NCBI GenBank assembly: GCA_031254105.1
Contig: JAIRVB010000015.1
Span: forward strand, 1-57,859
From: Chitinispirillales bacterium
GTDB taxonomy: Bacteria > Fibrobacterota > Chitinivibrionia > Chitinivibrionales > Chitinispirillaceae
Direction of reading: 5' to 3'
DNA: 57,859 nt
The notes under the pieces are model-generated. The model did no database searches, was not told the origin of the DNA, and saw only the letters and a list, made by a program, of their open reading frames with translations. Below, piece after piece: positions 18,657 through 30,485 of this stretch; position 1 is the first letter of the stretch, and each line of letters starts with the position of its first letter. A program made the translations under genes and the position numbers.

Positions 18657-19508
18657 CTATGTAGGCCGCCGGACATCCCAAAGGCATTCTAACGCGCTTT
18701 GGTAGCGTTTGGCGGGGTCATGTTGCATACACTTCTCAATTATGAGAGCCGCGCGGCGGTCTGTCTCAACAGGCGCGTAAGTGCTTGCTGATTTGGCCGC
18801 GAGTAAAGAAGTAAGGTCGGTTTGGCCGAAAGCGGGCAGCCCGCGGACGCATTCGTAAAGCAATAATCCGATTTGGTAGATGTCTGAGCGCATATCGCAA
18901 TCTCCGCCCGCGCAAGCCTCCGGCGGCATGTATCTGACGGAGCCGGGTACGGTGTCGGCTACTGTGTGTATTGATACTTCTACGGGGCGGGCAATGCCAA
19001 AATCCATTAGACGGGCGAAACCAGTATCAATTGAAAGGATTACATTTGCGGGTTTTATGTCGCGGTGCATTACGCTTGTGTGCGCTACCCCGTAAAGCGT
19101 GTAGTTTACCGTGTGCGCATAGTGTAAGCCCTCAAGAGTGCCTAAAACGACAGCAAGGGCAATAGGGAGCGGCAACGCCCCGCGCTTGGCTATGAGGGCG
19201 GCAAGTGTATGGCCGGAAACAAAATCCATTTCTAAAAAAGGGAGTCCGGCGGCGGTCTCGCCGTAGTGGTATACATGCACAATATTTGGGTGAACAAGTT
19301 TGGAAGAGATACGCGCTTCTGTTTTTATGCGGTCGCGTATGTCTTCGGTCGCGTCGGGGTGCATGACCTTAACAGCGCGGTGGAGTTCTAAAGCCTCGAC
19401 CCATGTTTTGTACACGGCGGCGCTGCCGCCTGTGCTGATGAGACTCAGGACGATGCCGGAACCAATTTTGTCACCCTCGCGGGGTAGTTGTAAAGTTTGT
19501 TCGTTCAT
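18657..19508 (-). CDS. Hanks-type serine/threonine protein kinase
   Basis: 283 aa from the ATG at 19508. A GTG at 19529 is possible but lies inside a repeat palindrome, so I prefer the ATG, although no ribosome-binding site is obvious. It is essentially a bare kinase domain: glycine loop ISTGGSAAVYK, the invariant Lys in HRAVKVMHPD, catalytic loop MHRDIKPANVILS (about 145-157), DFGIARP (about 165), APE-equivalent MPPEAC, and a C-lobe ending with KRYQSALECLWD. There is no membrane helix, PASTA or sensor domain, so it is cytoplasmic and probably acts on a partner encoded elsewhere. It is separated from the RHH gene downstream of its start by a TTAGCTAAT repeat array. Confidence 0.88.
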   Translation of the reverse strand: MNEQTLQLPREGDKIGSGIVLSLISTGGSAAVYKTWVEALELHRAVKVMHPDATEDIRDRIKTEARISSKLVHPNIVHVYHYGETAAGLPFLEMDFVSGHTLAALIAKRGALPLPIALAVVLGTLEGLHYAHTVNYTLYGVAHTSVMHRDIKPANVILSIDTGFARLMDFGIARPVEVSIHTVADTVPGSVRYMPPEACAGGDCDMRSDIYQIGLLLYECVRGLPAFGQTDLTSLLAAKSASTYAPVETDRRAALIIEKCMQHDPAKRYQSALECLWDVRRPT

Positions 19509-19551
19509 TTTTGTTTGACGGGCGGCCACACAGGGAACGCCCCTACAGGGT

Positions 19552-19595
19552 GCTAATGTTAGCTAACATTAGCTAATGGTAGCCGCTGTTAGCGT
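19552..19595. repeat. TTAGCTAAT array 1 with a 22-bp perfect palindrome
   Basis: 19552-19573 (GCTAATGTTAGCTAACAT followed by TAGC) is a perfect palindrome, and further TAGCTAATGG/TAGC units follow. It lies between the kinase gene and the end of the RHH gene. Candidate binding site for the RHH protein. Confidence 0.65.
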
Positions 19596-19614
19596 GTGCG
19601 TTGTGTAAGATGGG

Positions 19615-20034
19615 CTACGCTACAATACCCAAATCCTTTTTAACAAGTTCCCCTAAATAATGGGAAACTGACCTTCCGTTCTGCTCAATAGCCGTTTTTA
19701 ACGTCTCATATACTTTTATATCAAAATAGACAGTTTTGGGTTTTCTGTCTTTTAAACGTAGTGCCTTTTCGGATGCGGTTTTTGTTACGGTGGTTGGTTG
19801 TGTTTTTGATTGCTTGCGGCTGGATGCGGCAGCAGCAGCGGGTAGCAGCTGTTGTACGCCCCTGCCCTGATTGCGGGTGCGGGGCGGGTTAGAGGGGGAA
19901 ATGTTATTCGCCCCTACAGCGGCGGCGGATGATTTGGTTAATACTGCGCTTTGGGCGTTCTTGGTTGCCTGTGCTATGATTTTGTCTGTTGTTGAAGAGA
20001 TTTTTACTTTCTGTCCTACATTCGGGTTGGTCAT
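19615..20034 (-). CDS. Ribbon-helix-helix DNA-binding protein paired with ParA
   Basis: 139 aa. The C-terminal ~45 residues (KPKTVYFDIKVYETLKTAIE...SVSHYLGELVKKDLG) form a classic ribbon-helix-helix: a strand KTVYFDI, then two helices. RHH proteins bind operator repeats as dimers, and in type Ib partition systems (ParG, Omega) they are the centromere-binding partner of a ParA ATPase. The N-terminal ~90 residues are low-complexity (S, N, A, T, Q and K) and probably disordered, as in ParG-type proteins where this tail stimulates the ATPase. The stretch RNQGRGVQQLLPAAAAASS is encoded by DNA resembling the local palindromic repeats. It overlaps the parA gene by 4 bases (ATGA). Confidence 0.78.
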   Translation of the reverse strand: MTNPNVGQKVKISSTTDKIIAQATKNAQSAVLTKSSAAAVGANNISPSNPPRTRNQGRGVQQLLPAAAAASSRKQSKTQPTTVTKTASEKALRLKDRKPKTVYFDIKVYETLKTAIEQNGRSVSHYLGELVKKDLGIVA

Positions 20035-20876
20035 TGGCTGCTCCTTGATTGTACTCTGTTACGTGCGTTTTCTGCTAAGTGTTTGTTGCGCTCTACTAAT
20101 AAATCACCGCTCAATTTTTTCTCTTTGAACGTGAAAATCTCGGTCATCATTTTTATGATATATGGTACTGCTTTACTGGACATATAGCGGTCGAGCAGTA
20201 AAATTTTTTCCTCTGTTACAATAATATCAAGAATACTGTCAACTGGTATGGCCGTTGTAACGGACTTTGGAAACATTTTCTTTAACGCTGTTAGAAATGC
20301 TTCCTGTCTTTGTACATTACGGTATTTATTTGGTATGATTTTTATATTCTCACGGTTGAAAGAAAAGTTTTCGGTAAGTAAGCGGTACATGACGGATAAA
20401 CCGTTTACGGCCAACTGTTGAAGTTCGGTAGGGACAAAGACATATTCAGCAGCGTGTAAAGATGCTCTCTGTAATGCTGAAATACCCGGATGGTTGTCGA
20501 TTATGATGTAATCGTAATGGGTTGCCGCATAAGATTTTTGTATAACCTCTGCAAGTATACGCTCGTTTGTTACATCTGCGTCACACAGTGAGTCCGGCGC
20601 TGTGATGCAGTGAACGTTTGTGAGCGTTGTTTGCAAAGTCATGTCTTCCAAAATGGCATCAATCTTTGGCATCTGCGAGGCTTTTAATGAGTAAAGATTT
20701 CCTATGTTTGGTTCCGATGGAGTAAGCCCAAGCATAGTGGAAAGATTGTGCTGGCCATCGTTATCTATGGCCAAAACTTTGTGGCCTATGATTCCAAGGG
20801 CTTGTGCTATGATGCAGGCCAAGGTGGTTTTGCCTACACCGCCCTTGTTGTTGACAAATGATATTACGGTTGCCAT
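20031..20876 (-). CDS. ParA/MinD-type partition ATPase
   Basis: 281 aa. Deviant Walker A motif NNKGGVGKTT (residues 9-18), the AIDNDGQHNLS segment (Walker A' region) and IIIDNHPG (Walker B) identify a ParA/Soj-family ATPase, which moves DNA or protein cargo by ATP-dependent nucleoid binding. There is no N-terminal helix-turn-helix, as in type Ib ParA proteins, which agrees with the downstream RHH partner overlapping it by 4 bases. A small ParA next to a RHH gene is typical of plasmids and integrated elements rather than of the chromosomal parABS locus. TTAGCTAAT repeats lie upstream of its start (20972-21003) and beyond its partner gene (19552-19595). Confidence 0.9.
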   Translation of the reverse strand: MATVISFVNNKGGVGKTTLACIIAQALGIIGHKVLAIDNDGQHNLSTMLGLTPSEPNIGNLYSLKASQMPKIDAILEDMTLQTTLTNVHCITAPDSLCDADVTNERILAEVIQKSYAATHYDYIIIDNHPGISALQRASLHAAEYVFVPTELQQLAVNGLSVMYRLLTENFSFNRENIKIIPNKYRNVQRQEAFLTALKKMFPKSVTTAIPVDSILDIIVTEEKILLLDRYMSSKAVPYIIKMMTEIFTFKEKKLSGDLLVERNKHLAENARNRVQSRSSQ

Positions 20877-20893
20877 TTGCTTTCCTTTTAAAC

Positions 20894-20963
20894 GGGCGGC
20901 AGGCTGCCGCCCCTACAGGGTGATACGTTGTTTGCATGAACGGCGGGCGGCTACTGGCCGCCC
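20894..20963. repeat. Two GGGCGGC palindromes ahead of parA
   Basis: GGGCGGCAGGCTGCCGCCC (20894-20912) and GGGCGGCTACTGGCCGCCC (20945-20963) are REP-like palindromes. Each is followed by CTACAGGGTG, the same phrase that precedes the repeat array at 19552. Confidence 0.75.
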
Positions 20964-20971
20964 TACAGGGT

Positions 20972-21003
20972 GCTAATGTTAGCTAATGGCAGCTAATATT
21001 AGC
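20972..21003. repeat. TTAGCTAAT array 2, upstream of parA
   Basis: GCTAATGTTAGCTAATGGCA continuing with GCTAATATTAGC gives three to four units of (T)TAGCTAAT. It lies between the Rpn gene stop and the parA start, where an autoregulatory operator or centromere would be expected. Confidence 0.65.
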
Positions 21004-21006
21004 GGA

Positions 21007-21924
21007 TTACAGGCGTTTTATTTGTTCGATGCTTAGTCCGGTATCTTCCGATATTTCTGCCAATGATTTGCCGCGTTCTTTCATTTTTTTTGCGACCTGT
21101 AGTATTCCCTCTTCTTTGCCTTTTCTTTTAGCCGTGTATATTGCGCTGTCTACGCTTGATTTGTCGGCCTGATATTTTTCGTATGCTTTGCGCTCTGCTG
21201 TGGACATTTTTAAAAGGTCTAATTTTAGAGCGGCTTCTTTTATACCCGCTGCTTTAAAGTCGCTTCTTACTGCGGAATTTTTCAATAAATAAATCCATTC
21301 ATCAAACTTGGTGCGCATATGTTCATCAAACATTTCAGGTAGAATCAAATAATATTCGGGGTGAATGTCGCTTTTTTCATTAAGCCCAGAGGTAAGACCG
21401 CGAGTTTGCGCAAAGGGGATAGTTTCGTTTTTAAAGTTAACGCCCTTGAAGCCGTCAAACTTTCCGTTAAACAGATACTCGTGTTTTGCGCCTAAGTTAT
21501 AGTAGGCGATATTTATTGAGTAAACTTTTTTAATGTCGTAATTTTCAGAACCTGACGGCACCTGTTCTGTTATGGCCTTGCTGACGCCATACAACACTCT
21601 GCTTAAAAAGTCTACCTGTTCAAGGAACTGAATCTCAAAAACCGCAAACTCGCCATTGTCGATTTGCGCTTTCAGGTCTACCCTGTTTGTTTTGCCGTCT
21701 GAGTTTGCCTTGTTGCTCTCGGACTCTAAAATGGCTTTGACGGAAACGTTTCTTTTAAGAAGCTCGCTTAAAAACCCGCTGAGGATGCCAAAACTCTTTT
21801 TGTCTCGAAAGAGATACTTAACAGCGTAATCAAAAGAGACGATTGTACGCTCTTTTTTTGATGCGGCTTTTTTTACAGACGGCTTTCTTACCGCCGCTTT
21901 TTTGGGTGCTGTTTTCTTTTGCAT
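21007..21924 (-). CDS. Rpn-family recombination-promoting nuclease / PD-(D/E)XK transposase-like protein
   Basis: 305 aa. After a Lys/Ala-rich N-terminal tail (KKTAPKKAAVRKPSVKKAAS), the family signature FDYAVKYLFRDKKSFGILSG appears at about residues 31-50, and the nuclease core is VDLKAQIDNGEFAVFEIQF (about 82-100), giving the D and E-x-Q of a PD-(D/E)XK site. The C-terminus (GKEEGILQVAKKMKERGKSL, SEDTGLSIEQIKRL) is the usual small helical repeat of this group. Rpn proteins in E. coli are magnesium- or calcium-dependent DNA endonucleases that raise RecA-independent recombination. The gene is flanked on both sides by TTAGCTAAT arrays, and its lysine-rich tail is longer than usual. Confidence 0.85.
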   Translation of the reverse strand: MQKKTAPKKAAVRKPSVKKAASKKERTIVSFDYAVKYLFRDKKSFGILSGFLSELLKRNVSVKAILESESNKANSDGKTNRVDLKAQIDNGEFAVFEIQFLEQVDFLSRVLYGVSKAITEQVPSGSENYDIKKVYSINIAYYNLGAKHEYLFNGKFDGFKGVNFKNETIPFAQTRGLTSGLNEKSDIHPEYYLILPEMFDEHMRTKFDEWIYLLKNSAVRSDFKAAGIKEAALKLDLLKMSTAERKAYEKYQADKSSVDSAIYTAKRKGKEEGILQVAKKMKERGKSLAEISEDTGLSIEQIKRL

Positions 21925-21947
21925 GGGCGTTCCTTTCTATTTTGGGA

Positions 21948-22148
21948 GGGTACTTGCGAAGGGTACCCCTACGGTTACGGTTTATGGTGCGGGGATGTTG
22001 CCCCACGCTATTAATATATATTGTGCGGGTACGCTAATGTTAGCTAATTATAGCTAATATTAGCTAATGTTAGCTTTATATAATGGATGCACTGATAATG
22101 CCGGAAATAAATGTGTTTGCGTAATGAGGGTACCCGCGAGGGGTACCC
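21948..22148. repeat. Two GGGTACC...GGTACCC palindromes
   Basis: GGGTACTTGCGAAGGGTACCC (split as GGGTAC...GGGTACCC, 21948-21968) and GGGTACCC-GCGA-GGGGTACCC (22128-22148) lie on either side of the repeat array at 22033. They belong to the same REP-like palindrome class seen across the window. Confidence 0.65.
22033..22074. repeat. TTAGCTAAT array 3, upstream of the Rpn gene
   Basis: Five units of GCTAAT/TAGCTAAT run from 22033 to 22074, the longest of the three arrays. The gap 21925-22259 otherwise contains only palindromes. Confidence 0.7.
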
Positions 22149-22469: not shown

Positions 22470-23555
22470 CTACTCTATTACACCAAACGAATATTTGACA
22501 TCTTGTATGATACAACTTCGCAGCCGCGTTATCAATTTCCTTGCAACTGCAACTATCGCTTTCTTGCAATTACCACTATTGTGCTTTATTCGACAATAAA
22601 ACTCCTGGAGCGCAGGGTCACGACTTTTGGCTATCCAAGCGCTCTCAATGAGCCATGACCGTATCAGCGCATTACCTTGTTTGCTTATTTCACCCTTTCT
22701 TATACTCTCGCCGCTGGAATATTCCGTTCCTCCCAGTCCAACAAAGGAAGCTAACTGTGCGCCTGTTGTGAAACGGTGAAAATCTTCTCCAAGTTCCAAA
22801 ATCAAACGAATCGCTGTAAGTTCCCCTATACCGGGCAATGATACTGCAATTCCAAAAGCCTTAGCGTAACGTTCTTTTTTAGACAAGCTCTTCAACTCTG
22901 CTTTTAGCTTTTTCTGCTGCTTCCAAAAAAGCTCAAGCTTTTCAAAGTATGGCTCCAATGCCAATTGAAGCGTAGGATCCAAGCTGACAAGAAGTTCTCT
23001 AAGATACTTATAATGGCCGTCATTCCAATCATGTACTGTAATACCGGTCTCTATACCATGACAATCAAACAACTTACGTATCTGATTCTTAGTTCGGGTA
23101 GTATCACGTATTACGGAACCAAGTGTACGAGCTACTTGACGGTCAATACGCCTCTGTTTATCTGGAACATGACAAGCTTTACAGTTGCCATCTTCAAGAT
23201 TCTTGGCTAAAAGTTTAGCGTCAATACGATCGTTTTTAACTCTGGCGCATTTAGCCTGATGCACGGTATGCGGAGGCACAACTGTACACTTATAACCATC
23301 CGCAATTAAAGCATCGTAAAGATTAAATCCTCTAAACCCTGCCTCATAAACAATGTGTATATTGCAATCTACAAAGTTTTGAAGATAACCATGAAGAGCG
23401 TCATAACGCGCTGCCATACTGGAAACATTGATAATATTCTTATCACTACGAGCGCAAACCACCCACGTCCTCTTGGAATCTTCAAGTCCTATAAAAATTT
23501 CTTTGCCTTTGGCGATGTAATCTTGCATTTTTCTTTCTCTAGATTTACTAACCAT
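22470..23555 (-). CDS. IS110/IS1111-family (DEDD) transposase
   Basis: 361-aa recombinase of the IS110 family, which moves circular IS intermediates using an RNA guide. The N-terminal RuvC-like domain shows the acidic residues in IGLEDSKRTWV, IVYEAGFRG and KNDRIDAKLLAKN (D, E, D, D). The C-terminal Tnp_20 domain carries LPGIGELTAIRLILELG and LASFVGLGGTEYSSGES, containing the serine-rich active region of the family. The frame is intact, so the element may be active. A ribosome-binding site (AAGGAAGG) sits just upstream of the ATG inside a long hairpin (23556-23633). The element interrupts an island of RHH/ParA and RAYT genes. I cannot fix its exact ends by eye. Confidence 0.93.
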   Translation of the reverse strand: MVSKSRERKMQDYIAKGKEIFIGLEDSKRTWVVCARSDKNIINVSSMAARYDALHGYLQNFVDCNIHIVYEAGFRGFNLYDALIADGYKCTVVPPHTVHQAKCARVKNDRIDAKLLAKNLEDGNCKACHVPDKQRRIDRQVARTLGSVIRDTTRTKNQIRKLFDCHGIETGITVHDWNDGHYKYLRELLVSLDPTLQLALEPYFEKLELFWKQQKKLKAELKSLSKKERYAKAFGIAVSLPGIGELTAIRLILELGEDFHRFTTGAQLASFVGLGGTEYSSGESIRKGEISKQGNALIRSWLIESAWIAKSRDPALQEFYCRIKHNSGNCKKAIVAVARKLITRLRSCIIQDVKYSFGVIE

Positions 23556-30187: not shown

Positions 30188-30485
30188 TTATGAATTTTGA
30201 ATTATGAATTGAAGTTACGCATCTCACATCCACTCGGGAGTGTATTGTTCCTGGTTGTTATAGCGGAACGATCATTGATCGTTCCCTGTTGTATCTCCAA
30301 CACCGTCATCCCCGCGAAGACGGGAATCCATTGTTCTTACGTAGGGAACGACCAGCGGTCGTTCCGTCATATCATTGCGGTCGTTCCGTCATATCATTTA
30401 AGAACAATAGACTCCCGCTTTCGCGGGAATGACGGCTCTGGAGATACAGTCCCGTGCGTAACATCAGTTATGAATTGAAATTCAA
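30187..30485. repeat. Nested inverted-repeat mosaic
   Basis: Outer arms TATGAATTGAAGTTACGCA (30205) and TGCGTAACATCAGTTATGAA (30455) enclose a ~50-bp inverted repeat (30290-30339 against 30399-30447). That repeat contains the widely known CCCGCGAAGACGGGA / TCCCGCTTTCGCGGGA palindrome. The middle holds GGAACGACC-type hairpins at 30264, 30345 and 30378. No gene is credible here. Confidence 0.75.

Follow-up and report, generated by a model that had tools for sequence, protein, structure and literature searches.

A chromosomal locus of a Chitinispirillales bacterium, in which a ParA-family ATPase gene (parA) and the gene of a small ribbon-helix-helix (RHH) type protein (rhh) stand between a Ser/Thr protein kinase gene and an Rpn-family nuclease gene (rpn), is best explained, with moderate confidence, as a type Ib-like partition cassette captured by the chromosome. 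The RHH protein would repress par, kinase and rpn through arrays of short repeats that act as operators, the array having formerly been also the centromere. This model has five observed foundations, namely the gene order, the confinement of the arrays to the locus, an ortholog on a plasmid-type contig, a fold predicted to be of RHH type and a parallel cassette in another genome of the genus. The stretch of DNA that was analysed, hereafter the window, is 57,859 bp long.

The four genes and three repeat arrays listed in the initial annotation were all found again in the window, and the four genes lie on the minus strand. The kinase gene (18657-19529; Pfam Pkinase, 2.8e-34) is that of a bare kinase. 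It is followed at higher coordinates by rhh (19615-20034, 139 aa), by parA (20031-20876, 281 aa; Pfam AAA_31, 4.4e-31) and by rpn (21007-21924, 305 aa; TIGR01784, 3.7e-24, and PF12784), whose product belongs to the PD-(D/E)XK nucleases. The coordinates of the two central genes agree with the 4-bp overlap that had been noticed between rhh and a small ParA devoid of helix-turn-helix (HTH). The arrays were delimited with Tandem Repeats Finder and a genome pattern search. Array 1 (19552-19583, degenerate to about 19595) begins about 20 bp past the rhh stop codon and precedes the likely kinase start codon by 44-87 bp. Array 2 (20972-21003), a candidate operator or centromere, is separated by 3 bp from the rpn stop codon and precedes the ATG of parA by 96 bp. 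Array 3 (22033-22075), with 4.3 units the best preserved of the three, precedes the ATG of rpn by 109-151 bp. All three transcription units thus have an upstream array, and parA-rhh is flanked by arrays on both sides. On the relevant strand the arrays yielded no sigma-70-like promoter, which counts against the captured-cassette model; the promoters of this phylum may differ.

The three arrays had been proposed to be built from a single unit of 9 bp. That the arrays have one unit in common is confirmed, since Tandem Repeats Finder returned the same consensus, GCTAATGTTA, for all of them, and it is the length that had to be corrected, the period being 10 in each. The unit is best written as ATTAGCTAAT, a sequence identical to its reverse complement, and the 22-bp perfect palindrome described in array 1 was located at 19552-19573. 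Pairwise alignment of the array regions gave scores of 44-56, whereas 500 shuffles did not exceed 30. The window contains no excess of single copies of TTAGCTAAT with at most one mismatch (15 observed, 20 expected). Tandem pairs (TAGCTAANNNTAGCTAAN, at most one mismatch) occur in the whole 3.68-Mb genome at arrays 1-3 only, the reversed pattern used as a control giving 0 matches, and the rest of the genome holds one single copy of ATTAGCTAAT. In addition, a 12-mer, CCCTACAGGGTG, adjoins array 1 (19541-19552, plus strand) and is also present at 20911 and 20961. These three occurrences, all within the cassette, are those found in the genome with a pattern that demanded a non-G 15 positions downstream and could overlook as many as roughly one site in four.

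This distribution bears on the possibility, raised beforehand because two arrays follow the phrase CTACAGGGTG, that the arrays belong to a REP-like repeat dispersed between genes throughout the genome. Apart from this shared phrase, the prediction was of many genome copies, and the tandem units and the 12-mer were found at the cassette and not at dozens of unrelated loci; for the present assembly the idea is refuted and keeps almost no credence. Another explanation is that the arrays multiplied when an intergenic element was copied locally, their placement upstream of rpn and the kinase being then without regulatory meaning. Arrays 1 and 2 have 26 identical bases in common, CCCTACAGGGTG among them, and were therefore probably duplicated along with some flanking sequence; the occurrence of a related motif, GCCCCTACAG, at 19910, inside the rhh ORF, speaks in the same direction. 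Nevertheless, array 3 is devoid of the flank common to arrays 1 and 2, no copies were found elsewhere in the genome, and another genome of the genus has an unrelated repeat that is common to its par operon and its kinase promoter, as described below. Local copying as the whole explanation is thus regarded as unlikely. A further tandem repeat of the window, perfect and in two copies of 22 bp (GCGGTCGTTCCGTCATATCATT), is situated at 30355-30398.

The ParA protein has a deviant Walker A motif, KGGVGKTT, near its N-terminus and no HTH, and it matches ParA-type ATPase families only. Its 281 residues without N-terminal HTH correspond to the small ParA of type Ib systems. Its relatives in the PDB include Soj, ParF and delta', with the best scores against Soj-type proteins. 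In the searched plasmid records only distant ParA proteins (about 30%) and no RHH match were found, and the searched viral contigs contained no ParA relatives.

As for the RHH protein, no match to Pfam or NCBIfam reached the cut-off, the RHH-clan Pfam matches being sub-threshold. A long low-complexity linker precedes a C-terminal strand-helix-helix. AlphaFold2 gave a mean pLDDT of 73 for the C-terminal 46 residues and low confidence for the linker. The C-terminal model retrieved with Foldseek mostly RHH proteins (Arc, AvtR, MatP, CopASO, PutA, CopG), each with a weak E-value. Taken together, this weak but consistent evidence suggests that the 139-aa protein is of RHH type. A small RHH protein with a flexible N-terminus beside parA is another mark of type Ib systems, to which the 4-bp overlap and the RHH-like C-terminal fold correspond, and the protein is a candidate centromere-binding protein and repressor. 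RHH proteins of type Ib systems have an arginine finger in the N-terminus with which they stimulate ParA; the first 50 residues of the window protein contain no Arg, and its linker has a QGRG motif. The rhh ORF (window 19822-19930; 19910) bears a copy of the GCCCCTACAG motif, as seen in the flanking hairpin-type elements, and this copy seemingly codes in frame for part of the long linker. The RHH-profile matches examined in other genomes resembled common RHH proteins of antitoxin type, or fortuitous matches, and did not look like partners of ParA.

A separate ParA paralog is present across the order (G000:C17:54267-55082, which is L018:6265-7104; L023-L047), usually with a small protein gene just downstream. 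The encoded protein has a conserved N-terminus, approximately G-E-x-V-F-x-N-I-D-x-x-L-A-x-K-I-I, and a C-terminal hydrophobic segment, so that it is possibly a membrane-tethered ParA partner. By eye its N-terminus resembles that of the RHH protein, and a shared ParA-binding motif was considered. It was rejected as an HMM of 17 of these small membrane partners performed no better than on shuffles, the window RHH protein receiving an E-value of about 1 and its ortholog in G035, an order-level relative, no match at all.

Among 201 genomes searched, G035 alone holds a close relative of the ParA and a clear ortholog of the ParA-RHH pair. On its contig C92, a 62% identical ParA is followed by an RHH ortholog (40% identical in the alignment) in which the QGRG motif of the linker is conserved. 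Direct repeats of 10 bp, TTAATACGAA, begin 6 bp past the rhh stop codon and are confined to this place in the G035 genome. Beyond them come iterons of 22 bp and then genes for a replication initiator (weak PF10134), a TrwC relaxase and a TrwB coupling protein. The contig starts inside parA, and the region upstream of parA is outside it. This plasmid-type backbone leads to the view that the ParA-RHH family represents a partition cassette of plasmids, equipped with an array of 10-bp repeats, as the initial annotation had anticipated in calling the locus partition-like, and the cassette family would accordingly be one that lives on plasmids in the same bacterial order. Iterated repeats at the operon, a third feature of type Ib systems, are found in both cases, as arrays on both sides of parA-rhh in the window and as the 10-bp array beside the plasmid ortholog. 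When the region preceding rep on the G035 contig was searched for another RHH array, the similarity was no greater than in shuffles. The iterons themselves (TATCGGTATTTGGGGCA core) are located at L130:1416-1722 on this plasmid-like contig, upstream of the initiator. Clusters of 10-bp TTAGCTAAAA repeats were also seen on a viral contig (L173:6041-6170), between a small HTH-like gene and a sliding-clamp-like gene; no ParA-RHH was found on that contig.

Type Ib systems are carried on plasmids or similar replicons. The G035 contig is plasmid-like, whereas the window contig carries ordinary chromosomal genes, including flagellar-looking genes at 33-48 kb as read from the sequence. The window locus would then be a chromosomal copy of a plasmid-type partition cassette and not a plasmid partition system. 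A canonical gidA-gidB-parA-parB locus is present in the host on a different contig (C4), so the window ParA-RHH is an extra system; two further ParA paralogs are present besides the canonical parABS. The cassette is flanked by GH9 and DUF4914 genes that are adjacent, about 190 bp apart, in G010 and G015, two relatives from another genus of the same family. Therefore about 6 kb, including an IS110 copy, were probably inserted between GH9 and DUF4914 in the lineage of the window, to judge from this comparison of gene order, and a deletion in the relatives could instead account for the difference. The neighbours of DUF4914 are different ones in G001, a genome of the same genus. The IS110-family transposase gene is at 22470-23555, beside the cassette. 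It is the only mobility gene among the ORFs between GH9 and DUF4914; of the integrase and att repeats that characterise an integrative element, neither was seen.

The chromosomal setting also informs on whether the cassette still works in partition, the arrays, the RHH protein and ParA positioning or segregating the chromosomal region or an element that includes the cassette. The ParA motifs are intact and the frames open, and three separate arrays recall the several parS sites of pSM19035. Against this stand the canonical parABS of the genome, the chromosomal nature of the contig and the fact that no replication or transfer genes were seen near the locus in the window, and a working partition system is considered distinctly improbable. 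The captured cassette, which would now act in regulation, remains preferred.

In such a captured cassette, rpn looks like a resident gene brought under an array and not like a part of the plasmid backbone. The rpn family has 27 matching places in the host genome, the nearest paralog being 52% identical. The idea that 10-bp arrays are a general feature of rpn genes was ruled out, since no ATTAGCTAAT array was found at the other host copies and only the rpn of the cassette carries one. Rpn being a large native family and the kinase a genus-level family, both appear to have been recruited to the cassette and not brought in with it. Rpn proteins, among which the window protein is placed by TIGR01784, are described as toxin-antitoxin and anti-phage nucleases in the part of the literature account consulted (PMC10327210), and that part does not mention an operator of array type such as the one upstream of the window rpn.

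The kinase has a likely start at ATG 19508, giving 283 aa, and its invariant Lys, HRD and DFG motifs are intact. It does not have the C-terminal half present in a same-genus relative, and no remnant of this half was found downstream of it. Its closest relatives are two genes of G001 (64% and 63%). One has no adjoining ParA. The other, the closest (64%), belongs to a locus on contig C31 with the order ParA-RHH-AlbA_2-kinase. The ParA of this locus is 26% identical to that of the window; its RHH protein has Pfam matches to HicB, TacA and ParG types and gave no alignment with the window RHH protein. An AT-rich repeat of 36 nt, 83% identical between its copies, is common to the ParA-RHH gap and the kinase promoter. 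Its score was reached in 0 of 1000 dinucleotide shuffles, and among the 216 loci compared it was found at this one only. A weaker copy lies upstream of ParA (6/1000 shuffles). About 1 kb upstream of the same ParA, there is a gene for a YhcG-type PD-(D/E)XK nuclease (L215:2431-3492); a direct repeat of about 35 bp, in which TTTACGCAATGCGTAAACATTTAGTTTGTCAACTT occurs, stands on either side of it.

Two loci of the genus therefore combine a ParA-RHH pair, a kinase of the same subfamily and a shared repeat, the repeat sequences being unrelated. Because one repeat is found in G001 both at the ParA-RHH operon and in the promoter of the kinase most closely related to that of the window, the idea of a shared regulator is strengthened, and this parallel would be its strongest new support (n = 2 loci). 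That the coupling arose with unrelated repeats suggests that it is under selection (n = 2 loci). A broader and more speculative proposal, which is given only a small chance, is that partition-derived ParA-RHH pairs were repeatedly coupled in this genus to one Ser/Thr kinase subfamily, with a centromere-type repeat as kinase operator, ParA dynamics or array occupancy setting the expression of the kinase and also of the nuclease.

The mechanism may be pictured as follows. RHH dimers would bind the 10-bp palindromic units cooperatively, in a chain-like manner. On the plasmid, the array would be both centromere and par operator. In the chromosome, the three arrays upstream of parA-rhh, rpn and the kinase would define one small regulon, probably controlled by a single small RHH protein, presumably through repression. 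The flexible RHH N-terminus may stimulate the ParA ATPase, and some partition activity might remain. If true, the Omega-type design, where one RHH protein is centromere binder and multi-promoter regulator, would extend to a chromosomal locus of the Fibrobacterota, and the predicted targets of the regulator would be a signalling kinase and a member of a toxic nuclease family.

Among known systems, the delta/omega system of pSM19035 offers a close comparison and a precedent established by experiment. Its RHH protein Omega, repressor and centromere binder in one, binds arrays of 7-bp repeats overlapping the copS, delta and omega promoters, and at least 4 contiguous repeats are needed for full activity and full ParA stimulation (PMC9499535). 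Arrays 1 and 2 of the window contain only 3-4 good units each, which is at or below this known minimum and counts against the captured-cassette model. As in pSM19035, a small ParA and an RHH protein are associated with several repeat arrays upstream of several genes. However, the pSM19035 repeats are non-palindromic heptads, WATCACW, with 7-10 per site, and those of the window are not of this kind, being palindromic 10-bp units, ATTAGCTAAT, with 3-5 per array. In addition, delta and omega are plasmid-borne and do not form one operon, whereas parA-rhh is a chromosomal operon with a kinase and an Rpn nuclease as neighbours.

The other comparison is the type Ib ParF-ParG-parH system of TP228 (PMC5016525), with which the window shares the parA-rhh order, the array upstream of the operon and an RHH protein that, like ParG, has a long non-RHH N-terminus. 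Unlike ParG, the window RHH protein does not match Pfam ParG, and the window ParA, with its best scores against Soj-type proteins, is larger than ParF (281 aa versus 206 for the ParF chain). The locus would be a variation on the already known Omega/ParG-type systems.
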